Part shown: positions 2,022-41,178 of the stretch, piece after piece
How the letters are laid out: each line of letters opens with the position of its first letter
Numbering within the stretch: position 1 is the stretch's first letter
DNA from: an uncultured Clostridia bacterium
Lineage (GTDB): Bacteria > Bacillota > Clostridia > Oscillospirales > Ruminococcaceae
NCBI GenBank assembly: GCA_947168885.1
Contig: CAMVNQ010000001.1
Span: 554,981-618,980, forward strand
Length of the DNA stretch: 64,000 nucleotides
Direction: 5' to 3'
Made by a program: the position numbers and the translations under genes
The notes under the pieces: model-generated
Seen by the model: the letters and a program-made list of their open reading frames with translations, nothing else
What the model was told of the DNA's origin: nothing
Databases searched by the model: none

Positions 2022-2351
2022 TTAATTTTTATTCTTTTGCTCCACAAGAAGATCAACAACATCAAGAATATCGCGCTGCTGCTCCTGCGATAACGCACCG
2101 ATCTTATCGCCCAGCATCGTCTGTCTGATCCCAACTTGTGTATCGAGTACATCACATAAAAGCATATCAGCCGAAACATTTAGCGCATTTGCGATATTAA
2201 TAAGTGTTTCGAGCGAAGGAGATCTTTCGCCGCGTTCAAGCACACCTATATGCTTTGATGATACATCGCAAAGCTCTGCAAGCTTATCCTGTGACATACC
2301 GGCAGCTGTACGATACTTTCGAATATAAATGCCAATTGATGAAAAATCCAT
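2022..2351 (-). CDS. XRE-family transcriptional regulator
   Basis: IRKYRTAAGMSQDKLAELCDVSSKHIGVLERGERSPSLETLINIANAL. Confidence 0.9.
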   Translation of the reverse strand: MDFSSIGIYIRKYRTAAGMSQDKLAELCDVSSKHIGVLERGERSPSLETLINIANALNVSADMLLCDVLDTQVGIRQTMLGDKIGALSQEQQRDILDVVDLLVEQKNKN

Positions 2352-33393: not shown

Positions 33394-35661
33394 TTATTTA
33401 ATTATTCTGCTGAAATAACTATCCAGTTTTTTATCGCATATTTTCCTGATTTCATTCTTTTCGTCATCAGTCAGATTCTTCCACACAGTAGGCTCGACCT
33501 CGACTATACCGAGAGTTTTGGTATGCCGCAGCATCTGCATATCTTCAAAACGCTTGAACGGATTTGAAAGAATATTGCGCTGGGCCTCCTTATCGGTGTA
33601 GCCGCCTTTAGCAAAAAGACTGTTTGATTTCTCGACAACAAGACCTTTATCACGTCTGTCCTCATAATACGCCTTGAAATATGCAGTAATATCATCGAGC
33701 TTTACTCTGCCGCTTTTGTCAGCATATTCGAGAACCGCTTTTATCAGCACAGGCTTGTAAGAATAGCTCATGTCCATCTGCCGCACCATATCCATAAAAA
33801 GATCTTTGCGGTTATCGTCGTTTATCAGTTTCCAGCCAAACTGTTCAGCAGCGGCTTCAAGTGCTTCTTCAGTAAAATAATTAAAACGCTTATATTCGCT
33901 AAATTGTACAACAAGCTGCGGTTTTATCTTTTCTTCACGTATATATCTTTCGACAGTTTCCGACTGCACATCTACGCGGCGGACAAATTCCATCTGCGAA
34001 ATCATGCCCTCAGCTTCTTCCTGCCAGTTAAATACATCAACAGCTTCGTAATCCGTTGCATCAACGGGGAAGTCAAGCAGGGCATCGGGCTTCTCTCCCT
34101 TTGCATAAAGGGTGTCATCAGCCGCACATTGTTCCTTCTTTCCGAGGACGAGCTTGCCCGGTTTATATTCTTTCAGTTTGAACAGCCTGTGCATTGAGAA
34201 CGGCATATTGTACTGACTTGCATTATCCACAAAATCAAAAACTATCAGACATTCTTTGTTGTCACAAAGACGCATACCTCTTCCGAGCTGCTGAGTATAG
34301 AGTATCTTTGACATAGTTGGTCTTGCCATGAATAAAACTTCTGTTTCAGGGCAGTCCCAACCCTCGTTCAGCAAATCGCAGGCACACAATGCCTTTATTT
34401 CTGATTTCTTGAATTTTGCAAGTATCTCCTTACGTTCAGCAGACTTCATACTACCGGAAACCGCAGCAGCTTCTGCCCCGCGTTCGCGTATCATCTGTGC
34501 GATCTGTTCTGCATGTTTTACGCTTGCACAGAAAATAACGGTGCGTTTTGTACTGCAATATTCCATAAAAGTGTTGGCAATAAGCTCGTTACGTTCCGGA
34601 ACAAATATCTTGCTTTCAAGATCGCGGATGTTGTACTGAACGCTGTTAAAGCGCACTTTCGTAAGATCAATATTTGTATGTATTCTTATACAGCGCACCG
34701 GAACAAGCTCACCGATCTCAACCGCAGTCTGAATATCGAGCTTGTGAGCAGTATGCTTGAAAGTATCCAGAATACTTTTATCGTCAGGTCTGTCCGGCGT
34801 CGCAGTAAGACCGAGCGTAAACTCCGGCTTGAAATATGACAATACCTTCTGATAGCTGTCGGCAGCGGCATGATGTGCCTCGTCTATGATTATATATGCG
34901 AAATCATCTTCTTTGAAACGTTCGAGATTAAGTGCAACACTCTGGATACTGCCGCAAACAACGTAAGCATTCGGCTGTTTTATGGACTCCACATATTTTC
35001 CGACAGTAACAGTTCGCCAAAGATCACGGAAAGTCTGTGTTGCCTGTTCGACAAGCTCATGGGTGTGTGCAAGAAACAGCGTTCTTTTACCATATCGTTT
35101 TGCGTCGAGTACAGCTGTAACTGTTTTTCCCGTTCCTGTAGCATGACAGATAAGAGCAATAGTTTCGCGGTTCATTCGCATCTGTTCAAGAGCGTCAAGT
35201 GCCTGCTGCTGATGTTCCTTCAGCTTAAGATCGAATTTGTCAAATGATTTGCCGCGCTGTTCGGGAAGATAGTTCTCGGCTTCGCGGAATGTCGGGCTTG
35301 TCCCAATAAATACACGAAGCTCATCCTTGACAGTATCGGGCTGTATCTGCATCTGACGGACAGCCCAGCGGAACACGTCCCACCCCAAGTGCACCATACT
35401 ATTCTGTTTCAGCAGATCATCATAGAATTTGTTTGCCGAAATGTGACTTTTGTTATGTGACGCTTCATCGTCGATCTCTATAGCAATCTTCCGGGCACCA
35501 CTTTCAAGAAAGAAATCAGCGAACCTGTCATTCTGATAAATGTCATAGAAATGATACTGCGAATAAAGATAGCCGGCTTTCTCCGCACCGAATGTATCGG
35601 CAAACAAATCAATAAACAGATCTTCCGCGGTACTACCCGAAGCAGACTTGTATTCTGTCAT
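33394..35661 (-). CDS. DEAH helicase with N-terminal nuclease-like domain
   Basis: [69 protein letters not shown]. Confidence 0.92.
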   Translation of the reverse strand: [755 protein letters not shown]

Positions 35662-36763: not shown

Positions 36764-36958
36764 TCAATAGTCGTCGCCGCCGAAGTCGTCGGAACTATCA
36801 TATCCGCTGCCAAAGTCGTCGTCATCATCATTGTCATCATTGTTACTATTGATGATGTCCTCGCTGATGCGATAGGTGAGATAGCTTTCCTCGAAGGAAA
36901 CATCGCCGTCGTTGTTGAAATCAATACCAAAACGCTTAGGTCCGTTACACATAGTCAA
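36764..36958 (-). CDS. EF-hand-like small acidic protein
   Basis: FGIDFNNDGDVSFEESYLTYRIS plus Asp-rich tail. Confidence 0.7.
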   Translation of the reverse strand: MTMCNGPKRFGIDFNNDGDVSFEESYLTYRISEDIINSNNDDNDDDDDFGSGYDSSDDFGGDDY

Positions 36959-37080: not shown

Positions 37081-38148
37081 TCAGAACCCTCCATGCTCTT
37101 CATAATAATCCTCCGCATCATAGTAGTCGAAGAAATCATCGTAGTGGTCATCATAGAAGTCTTCGGCACTATAGTAGTCCTTGACATTATAATCATCATC
37201 ATTACTTGACGATTTGCTTGATGAATTGTAATACGATTTAGTGCTCTTTACTTTGAACGAGCGGGGATCATCTCGGTCGTCCCATACCTGTATTACTTTA
37301 CCTTCGCAGCATCTTACTGAATAAATCTGTTCACCCTTGCTGTTGAACCAGTAGTATAGATTGCACTTTTTTGAGCCTTCATAGTTGCCACCGGTCTTGG
37401 AATAGCGTCCGATAGAGGTTTTAGTGATCTCAGATTCCTTCATTCCTACGCAAGGCGCTCCGTTTTTATTCCAGTTTTCCTGACGTATCCGTTCCTCTTC
37501 TTCATATCGACGATGATTCTCTGCAATTTGTTCATTTTTAAGAGGCTCAATTTCCAGTAATACATCGTTGGGAGATCGAAGTTCGTCGTGAGTCCATTTG
37601 GCTCCATAACATTTCAGTAAGTATTCAGTTGCCATAATATAGTCTTCTCTGGAATAACAATCCATCCCCTGGCAGTAGTTCTTGAGCAAATCAAGATCTT
37701 TATAGTATACCTTGTTAAGATCTGTAAAACTGAGATTGTTTAAGTCGCATACTGCGTAAAAATATTCTCCACGCTCTATCCGGTCAATAACTTTATCGTA
37801 AGCTATTTGTTTTTCAATGCGCTGACAGATAAGAACAATTGCAACTATTCCAATGATAATCAATAATACAACAATGCCAATTTTTTTTAATTCTTTAAAA
37901 AAGTCGTTATCATCTTCTTGGGGTTTATTTATTTTGACATTTGTAACTGCGTTAGAGGTATAGTGTGGCGTACTGCCGCCCGAATGCGGTACTCCTGTGC
38001 CAGTATGTAAACTATTGGATCTTGTGTCGGCAGAAGACGAGTATTTGTTGTTACTGATAGTCTCGCGTTCGATGTGGTAAGTCAAGTAACTTTCCTCAAA
38101 GCTGACTTTACCGTCATTGTTGAAGTCAAAACCAAAGTTATCACTCAT
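37081..38148 (-). CDS. EF-hand-like membrane protein
   Basis: MSDNFGFDFNNDGKVSFEESYLTYHIERET; TM VVLLIIIGIVAIVLIC; acidic/Tyr-rich C-terminus. Confidence 0.75.
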   Translation of the reverse strand: MSDNFGFDFNNDGKVSFEESYLTYHIERETISNNKYSSSADTRSNSLHTGTGVPHSGGSTPHYTSNAVTNVKINKPQEDDNDFFKELKKIGIVVLLIIIGIVAIVLICQRIEKQIAYDKVIDRIERGEYFYAVCDLNNLSFTDLNKVYYKDLDLLKNYCQGMDCYSREDYIMATEYLLKCYGAKWTHDELRSPNDVLLEIEPLKNEQIAENHRRYEEEERIRQENWNKNGAPCVGMKESEITKTSIGRYSKTGGNYEGSKKCNLYYWFNSKGEQIYSVRCCEGKVIQVWDDRDDPRSFKVKSTKSYYNSSSKSSSNDDDYNVKDYYSAEDFYDDHYDDFFDYYDAEDYYEEHGGF

Positions 38149-39270: not shown

Positions 39271-39546
39271 TCAGCGTATGTAATCGGGCGTTTTTACCCG
39301 GGCTACATAATACCGACAACCTTTTCTCAGGCAATCGTGTTTATTTCGCAGTTCTTTGGTAAGAAAGCCTTTGTGCTCATAAAAGGTACAGTATCCAACG
39401 CATTTTCCGCAGCCGGTCACAGTGCCGTCGATACAGCGACGGTTGTATTTATTGCCGCTGAATCCTCGATCGAATGCAGAGTAGGGCATATCGGAACTGT
39501 GGATGTATCTCCCGTTAAATGTGATAGTAACTGTAGAAGTATTCAT
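39271..39546 (-). CDS. Cys-rich hypothetical protein
   Basis: 91 aa with RRCIDGTVTGCGKCVGYC. Confidence 0.55.
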   Translation of the reverse strand: MNTSTVTITFNGRYIHSSDMPYSAFDRGFSGNKYNRRCIDGTVTGCGKCVGYCTFYEHKGFLTKELRNKHDCLRKGCRYYVARVKTPDYIR

Positions 39547-39716
39547 AATTGTACCTGTCCTTTCTGATCGTTTATGTAGTATTTTTTCATTGATATTGGC
39601 ATGCCGTGTTCAAGCTCCCATTTTCGGTCACTCAATGGATAGTCATACTCAGATAAAAAATATGATCTGTCCTCTGTACATCTCCAGTTGTCATCATACC
39701 AACCATCAAATCTCAT
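39543..39716 (-). CDS. 57-aa hypothetical (below ORF-track cutoff)
   Basis: MRFDGWYDDNWRCTEDRSYFLSEYDYPLSDRKWELEHGMPISMKKYYINDQKGQVQL*; AAGGAGGAC upstream; ATGA overlap with next gene. Confidence 0.6.
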   Translation of the reverse strand: MRFDGWYDDNWRCTEDRSYFLSEYDYPLSDRKWELEHGMPISMKKYYINDQKGQVQL

Positions 39717-39895
39717 ATAAATGTCCTCCTTGTAAAAATAATAAAAGCCCGAAGGCTAAATAAATCAAACTGTACGAATTCCCATCTAATCAGCAAAATA
39801 GTGGTAATAAGAAGGAACCGAGTGCAAAAAAAGCCCCGAAAGATAAGCAACGACCCGACCGAAAGAAACGGTCGAGCCGCAAAAACTCACATAAT

Positions 39896-40696
39896 ATAGG
39901 GAATGGGTGGACAAGAAACCCACTGCCAACAACTCCTCTCAAAAAGAACGTAACGGGTGGACAAGAAACCATCACTGAACAATGTATATCGGAACACCCG
40001 CAACCACATCCAGTATATATGCGTCAAGTGCGCCACCCAAGTAATCACATACATACATACTGCAAACGTGATCCACACACTATATAACGGTAACGAGGCA
40101 ACCATTTCTGATATATACGCAAAAAGTGTGCCCACACGTGTACATACCGTTATATATAAGCGAAATAGGGTCAACCACTCATATATTGTAACAGAGTCAA
40201 CTCATGCAGGGTCAACCGTGTAGCGGTCAACACATAGGTAAATAGGGTCAACCGTGAACGGGTCAACCCATAGGTAACACGGGTCAACCAATGAAAGTAT
40301 GCGTCAAGTGTGCCCAAGTAATAATCACACATACTGTAAACATGGTGCATGAACACTATGCTATATAATGGTAACGGCGCAACCATCCCTGTATGGGTCA
40401 ACCGTACATATAAGGAAACACAAGTCAACCCCGTGTAATATATACGCAAAAAGTGCGCCCACAAGAGCTCAGAAGAAACGCCGTAAGGTCAAACCAATAA
40501 GCCGTCACGAAACATACTGTAAAAGTGATGCATGATCGCAATGTATATCGAAACACCTGCAACCATCACGAGCTGTCTGCCTCACTTAATGTCCGCAGCC
40601 GCCCCACTGAATACACCTGCAACAGCTGCCCCGCAAAACTAAGGGAATGAGTGGAAAATAAATACTGCTATATAACGGTATAGACAACCATATTGC
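39896..40696. repeat. noncoding degenerate repeat region (GGGTCAACC and longer paired repeats)
   Basis: Six GGGTCAACC; duplicated GCGTCAAGTG..GCCC...ATACTG.AAAC, ATATATACGCAAAAAGTG.GCCCACA, CTATATAA.GGTA...CAACCAT. Confidence 0.85.
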
Positions 40697-40908
40697 AGCC
40701 ACCGTATCGACTGTCAAAATGCCAGCAAGCCCGCTTGTGAAAAGGATTTGCTAGGAAAACATCATTCTGCACTCAGAAAAAATTTTTCGAAAATCTCTAT
40801 TTTGCACAAATTTTAAATCGATATTTGTTTATTTGCACAAAAATAAAGCTCGTCAAAAACGGCGAGCTGTACTCTGTGTATATAAGCGCTATACCAAATG
40901 TTAAATAA

Positions 40909-41178
40909 TTATCGGATACCCATAGCTTTCTCAACAAAAAAGAGAATCCAGCCGAGTGCCGAGGCTCCGAGTATAAGATAAATGATCCAATTACCACCTT
41001 TTGATTTATTATTGATATTCTTGTCATAGGAGGTACCTTTGCTTGTTTGATTGCGACGGGGAGAATAGTTGCCGGAGTTTTTTCTTGCCGTTTCACGCTC
41101 AATATGGTATGTAAGCTGACTTTCTTCAAAGCTGACCTTGCCATCGTTATTGAAATCGAAACCGTAGCGATCGCTCAT
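40909..41178 (-). CDS. EF-hand-like small membrane protein
   Basis: MSDRYGFDFNNDGKVSFEESQLTYHIERETARKNSGN; TM WIIYLILGASALGWILFF. Confidence 0.75.
   Translation of the reverse strand: MSDRYGFDFNNDGKVSFEESQLTYHIERETARKNSGNYSPRRNQTSKGTSYDKNINNKSKGGNWIIYLILGASALGWILFFVEKAMGIR

Follow-up and report, generated by a model that had tools for sequence, protein, structure and literature searches.

Type III toxin–antitoxin loci carry their RNA antitoxin (ToxI, CptI or TenpI) in a block of several near-identical tandem repeats of about 35–50 nt, followed by a terminator and a small open reading frame; the repeats are reported to vary strongly from one locus to another (PMC4627078). Iteron origins and parS/parC-type partition loci contain short direct repeats of one orientation within mobile elements, iterons being regular repeats of about 17–22 bp with an adjacent initiator gene and DnaA boxes. 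In attenuated 5′ leaders, a long untranslated stretch in operon orientation ends in a terminator-like hairpin immediately before the Shine–Dalgarno sequence of the first gene. The large ornate noncoding RNAs ROOL, GOLLD and OLE are long noncoding stretches on mobile elements of gut or rumen Firmicutes. The repeat array described here shares with the first of these the order of repeat block, terminator and small open reading frame, with the second the short direct repeats of one orientation in a mobile element, with the third the untranslated stretch and the position of the hairpin, and with the last the long noncoding stretch and the type of element and host.

Structure and setting of the array

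The window, the whole 64,000-nt stretch of DNA that was analysed, extends to the terminus of its contig, which is 619 kb long and belongs to a 3.8-Mb genome. All genes between about 16 and 49 kb lie on the minus strand (Table 1). The array looks like part of the defence cargo of an integrated mobilizable element, since beyond the defence genes lie those for MobC, a relaxase and a tyrosine integrase. The minus-strand genes for the EF-hand-like and the 57-aa proteins are separated by about 1.2 kb in which no plausible gene is seen, and the array occupies the middle of this interval.

Table 1. Features of the array and its surroundings
Feature	Position	Strand	Remarks
Repeat-rich noncoding region	39896..40690	- (presumed sense)	Repeat families, 8-mer counts, composition
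GGGTCAACC, six exact copies (GGTTGACCC on minus strand)	40168, 40209, 40245, 40260, 40281, 40395	+	Span 40168..40403
Large block, copy 1 (TATGCGTCAAG..., ATACTG..., TATATAACGGTA..., ATATATACGCAAAAAGTG)	40018..40136	-	Families D1, D5, D7, D8
Large block, copy 2	40298..40463	-	Extra GGGTCAACC units; longer sub-blocks 78-82% identical
Partial third block copy (ATACTGTAAAAGTG, CAATGTATATCG, CTATATAACGGTA)	40512..40680	-	Families D1, D3, D8
AT-rich element TTTGTGCAAA-N21-TTTGTGCAAA, 5′ of array	40801..40841	-	Similar pair at same place in L019
Terminator-like hairpin (AGCTCGCCG...GACGAGCT + T-rich tail), 3′ of EF-hand-like gene	40847..40868	-	Sequence; aligned in L019
Strong terminator-like hairpin, 3′ end of array	39850..39880	-	12 pairs
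Short terminator-like hairpin AGCC-TTCG-GGCT + T run	39734..39757	-	Adjoins Shine–Dalgarno
57-aa gene	39543..39716	-	81% identical in L019; no family match
91-aa Cys-rich protein gene	39271..39546	-	Relatives in G070, G091, L024, L025
89-aa protein gene, EF-hand-like N-terminus (GFDFNNDGKVSFEE), 5′ side of array	40909..41178	-	
Wadjet JetA/JetD and associated genes	22-29 kb		
Two ResIII/DEAD helicase genes	29-36 kb		Type annotated as mREase_IV
DrmD-like SNF2 helicase and sacsin-like (TmtA-like) protein	41-47 kb		
Cro/C1-type HTH protein gene	47517-47939		
MobC, relaxase, tyrosine integrase	50.6-54.2 kb		

Repeat searches revealed nine families of imperfect direct repeats in the array, with copies 62–93% identical to the family reference. 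The array contains 123 pairs of repeated 8-mers, compared with 13.2 ± 4.8 in dinucleotide shuffles, which is the maximum among all 800-nt stretches of the window. A sequence-only reading of this DNA had reported six exact copies of GGGTCAACC with further degenerate ones, and long duplicated blocks at about 39979 and 40540, 40021 and 40301, and 40110 and 40438. The count against shuffles confirmed the former, and the blocks are present where they had been placed. All exact copies of GGGTCAACC are on the plus strand, with no other copy in the 64 kb; 0.12 ± 0.33 copies are expected and none of the shuffles reached six. Degenerate copies include those at 40194, 40224, 40422 and 40486. The spacing of the motif is irregular (15, 21, 15, 15, 26, 73 and 98 nt; 15 to 134 nt from start to start). 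The duplicated blocks comprise the pairs 40018/40298 (32 nt, 78% identical), 40093/40420 (44 nt, 82%) and 39980/40539 (27 nt, 93%), the triple 40055/40329/40512 and, at 40208/40244, two 36-nt copies in tandem. Together they make up an arrangement of about 280–330 nt that is present in three diverged copies, two long and one partial, the middle copy being enlarged by GGGTCAACC units 15–36 nt apart. The array is a single locus in the genome.

The minus strand of the array is 61% G+T, and in G+T content the stretches that overlap it are the most extreme ones of the window (63%; mean 50.5%, standard deviation 3%). Compared with shuffles, this strand folds with z = −3.4 when the terminal hairpin is included. 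This first value was discarded as a measure of structure, as it is inflated by the terminator hairpin; once the hairpin is removed, z is −2.0. The mean z of 240-nt segments is −1.2, and the plus strand folds no better than shuffles (z = +1.3 with and +0.7 without the terminal hairpin). Self-pairing of GGUUGACC needs G-U pairs and could occur only in minus-strand RNA. No Rfam covariance model matched the array, even at E ≤ 10.

Other repeats were observed in the window. The roughly 1.5 kb of noncoding DNA upstream of the MobC and relaxase genes (48900–50480) contains some eight diverged units of about 130–180 nt, each beginning near a TTATATATGAGAGG-like motif. Both strands of 795-nt segments fold strongly here, with z = −6.3 and −5.7 at 48700 and with −2.6 and −3.1 at 49500. 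This region is possibly an oriT with a regulatory region. At 2496–2605, a 44-nt unit with inverted repeats of TGGTCTAT is repeated 2.3 times almost perfectly upstream of an HTH-like gene (2022–2351, minus strand); this repeat is operator-like. An 11-nt tandem repeat, TGGGACTAAAT, is present in 6.6 copies at 63790–63861, near the contig end.

Comparison with related loci

In 60 related genomes, the only match to the array DNA was 38 nt long and attributable to chance; plasmids and phages gave no match over the array. The 91-aa, 57-aa, EF-hand-like and sacsin-like proteins were used as baits for syntenic loci in genomes of the genus, family and order and in IMG/VR. Only one locus keeping the module was found, through the 91-aa protein: L019, on contig 147 of genome G091, which belongs to another species of the same genus. 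Two further matches were rejected; the one in G457 is GatB, and the one in G046 lies among unrelated genes. No repeat-rich stretch was present upstream of the relatives of the 91-aa gene in G070, L024 and L025, or beside the relatives of the EF-hand-like gene that were checked.

The gene order in L019 is HTH protein, SNF2 helicase, sacsin-like remnant, EF-hand-like protein, spacer, 57-aa protein and 107-aa homologue. Its products are 81% (57-aa protein) and 64% (91-aa protein) identical to those of the window. The spacer is noncoding and repeat-rich, with 94 repeated 8-mer pairs versus 2.7 ± 2.4 in shuffles, but it measures about 350 nt compared with about 800 nt in the window, and its repeats differ from the window units. 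They comprise five copies of a 29-nt unit and three of a 49-nt unit, two of the latter being 92% identical, and include the near-palindrome GTTACATATATAGTGAC. The spacer folds with z = −4.3 in the sense and −3.4 in the antisense orientation. The excess of structure is weak in the window and stronger in G091; the strand and folding results as a whole are suggestive and fall short of proof.

What is conserved lies at the edges. On the 5′ side this holds for the first 130 nt, in which the terminator-like hairpin and TTTTTGTGCAAA...TTTTGTGCRAAA lie, and on the 3′ side for the last 70 nt, where a hairpin and T run lead into AAGGAGG. Local alignment gave z = 13.8 for the 5′ flank and 9.7 for the 3′ flank, compared with 3.8 for the array. 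The L019 equivalent of the short hairpin is AGCCT-TTGC-AGGCT followed by T8. The array sequences can hardly be aligned with each other. Their residual similarity is seen only in the sense orientation (p 0.008–0.05, dinucleotide shuffles), and they have no more distinct 6- to 8-mers in common than expected by chance. The two arrays appear to share only weak collinear similarity. A motif that by eye had seemed common to both, TTGAC-N-GTTAC-TATATAG, was withdrawn: a model built from both arrays finds clusters only at those two loci, which is circular, and a matrix from the window copies alone misses the G091 copies (p = 0.17).

Two minus-strand open reading frames of 95 and 97 aa run through the array. 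Neither has a counterpart of at least 50 aa on the sense strand of the L019 array, and coding through the array was rejected, as the frames are not conserved. The suggestion that the region holds no plausible gene was thereby borne out. The sequence-only reading had also held that related elements lacking the repeats would speak against it. The G091 locus cuts both ways, being repeat-rich at the same place, in favour of that reading, but with different repeats, against it. It is notable that at these two loci the place and the repetitiveness are conserved while the sequence is lost.

The AT-rich TTTTTGTGCAAA with a second TTTGTGCAA 12–28 nt further on occurs at 40801–40841 in the window, at about 6180–6225 in L019, at 1501 in L002 and at 2995–3050 in L020. 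Phage MT835855 carries the element next to a CTAAC/TTAGT repeat stretch, and it is also found in 11 IMG/VR contigs and, as a single copy, upstream of an ECF-like sigma gene of the same genome as the array. The TTTGTGCAAA pair was dismissed as a marker of such arrays; MT835855 and IMG/VR contigs carry the pair, but there is no constant link to arrays.

The EF-hand-like gene beside the array belongs to a family of small proteins starting with GFDFNNDGKVSFEESYLTYHI, encoded in the window at 36764–36958, 37081–38148 and 40909–41178 and in L060 and L063. These proteins have an EF-hand-like N-terminus and often a transmembrane segment, occur in several copies per genome and adjoin Cys-rich 91-aa proteins; no Pfam family was found for them. 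AlphaFold confidence is low for the 91-aa protein (38.6) and the 57-aa protein (65.6).

Possible roles of the array

We tentatively favour, at somewhat below even chances, the view that the array is a minus-strand untranslated RNA, either a small noncoding RNA or a long 5′ leader of the operon whose first gene encodes the 57-aa protein. It is favoured because a hairpin with a T run directly precedes the Shine–Dalgarno sequence in both species. This arrangement implies either transcription that enters the operon after crossing the array or a promoter squeezed into a very small space. The sequence and the L019 alignment leave no evident room for a promoter between the intrinsic-terminator-like hairpin, which separates the untranslated stretch from the 57-aa gene, and that gene. 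Both conserved flanks would point to minus-strand transcription of the array, although the promoter scan gave no good sigma-70 promoter in front of it. Also in keeping with this view are the shared minus-strand direction of the genes from about 16 to 49 kb, the repeat-rich and structured stretch at the same place in G091, the better folding and the G+T richness of the minus strand, and the self-complementarity of GGUUGACC in minus-strand RNA. Against it stand the weak excess of structure once the terminator hairpin is removed, arrays that can hardly be aligned between the two species, the lack of an Rfam match and the small number of examples, two in the data covered. We infer transcription, attenuation and any role of the repeats alike. 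The transcript would begin close to the conserved TTTGTGCAAA element, at about 40.80–40.84 kb, cross the repeats and mostly stop at the two terminator-like hairpins (39880–39850 and 39757–39734). Read-through of the second hairpin would allow expression of the 57-aa and 91-aa genes. The repeats would change fast by duplication and divergence, so that position, flanks and repetitiveness are kept and the exact sequence is not. Unlike known attenuated leaders, the array is repeat-rich and poorly conserved, and neither a ligand-binding fold nor a leader peptide nor a matching Rfam family was found. It differs from the large ornate RNAs in its weak folding signal, its unconserved sequence and the lack of an Rfam match. 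A more specific form of the RNA reading, which we regard as improbable, is a regulatory RNA of the defence island with many mutually pairing GGUUGACC-type units, whose architecture matters rather than its sequence and whose repeats are replaced between species, possibly in conflict with phages.

Nearly as likely as a leader or small RNA is a neutral repeat-rich spacer with little or no function, which would have expanded through local duplication events (slippage, illegitimate recombination) and then diverged, only the flanking regulatory elements being of importance. Such a spacer accounts equally simply for the divergence of the arrays: the copies are old, imperfect and irregularly spaced, size and sequence differ strongly although the flanking genes are well conserved, and short words are shared only at chance level. 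It fits less well with repeats far above shuffles at the same place in both species, with a G+T strand bias that is unusual for the window and with the clear excess of structure in the G091 array. A cluster of protein-binding DNA sites (operators, iterons or partition/centromere-like sites), for example for the Cro/C1-type HTH protein of the island or an element-coded protein, is unlikely. The common orientation of the direct repeats, the near-palindrome in the G091 repeats and the HTH gene within the module in both species agree with it. However, the spacing is neither helical nor of the regular iteron kind, and the window-copy matrix misses the G091 repeats even though the DNA-binding parts of the two HTH proteins look almost the same, so that similar sites would be expected. 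The single occurrence of the array in the genome also argues against it. The proposal of an iteron-like replication or partition locus made in the sequence-only reading is not supported, for further reasons: no DnaA box TTATNCACA lies within 5 kb of the array (the nearest is at 34223), no replication or partition gene adjoins it, no Rep domain occurs among its neighbours, which are defence genes and small genes without assigned function, and it has no plasmid or phage relative. The description of a noncoding repeat region in the same reading stands, and its other proposal, a repeat-derived noncoding RNA, is retained as a slight favourite. The likeness to a type III toxin–antitoxin locus, with repeats giving an RNA antitoxin before a leaky terminator and a toxin gene, is one in outline only, and we consider such a locus highly improbable. 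The promoter-side element, repeats, terminator and small open reading frame follow one another as in ToxIN/CptIN, the setting is a defence island and repeats of this class are reported to vary widely between loci (PMC4627078). Nevertheless, the window repeats are dispersed and neither regular nor near-identical, the first downstream gene encodes just 57 aa, and comparison of the downstream products, each with some or all of Pfam, PADLOC, NCBIfam and PHROGs, gave no match to ToxN, CptN or TenpN toxins or to any other family.

As a neutral spacer, the array would be nothing out of the ordinary. As a functional leader or small RNA, it would represent a repeat RNA in a defence island that is conserved in position and replaced in sequence, and RNAs of this kind would escape searches based on sequence or covariance.
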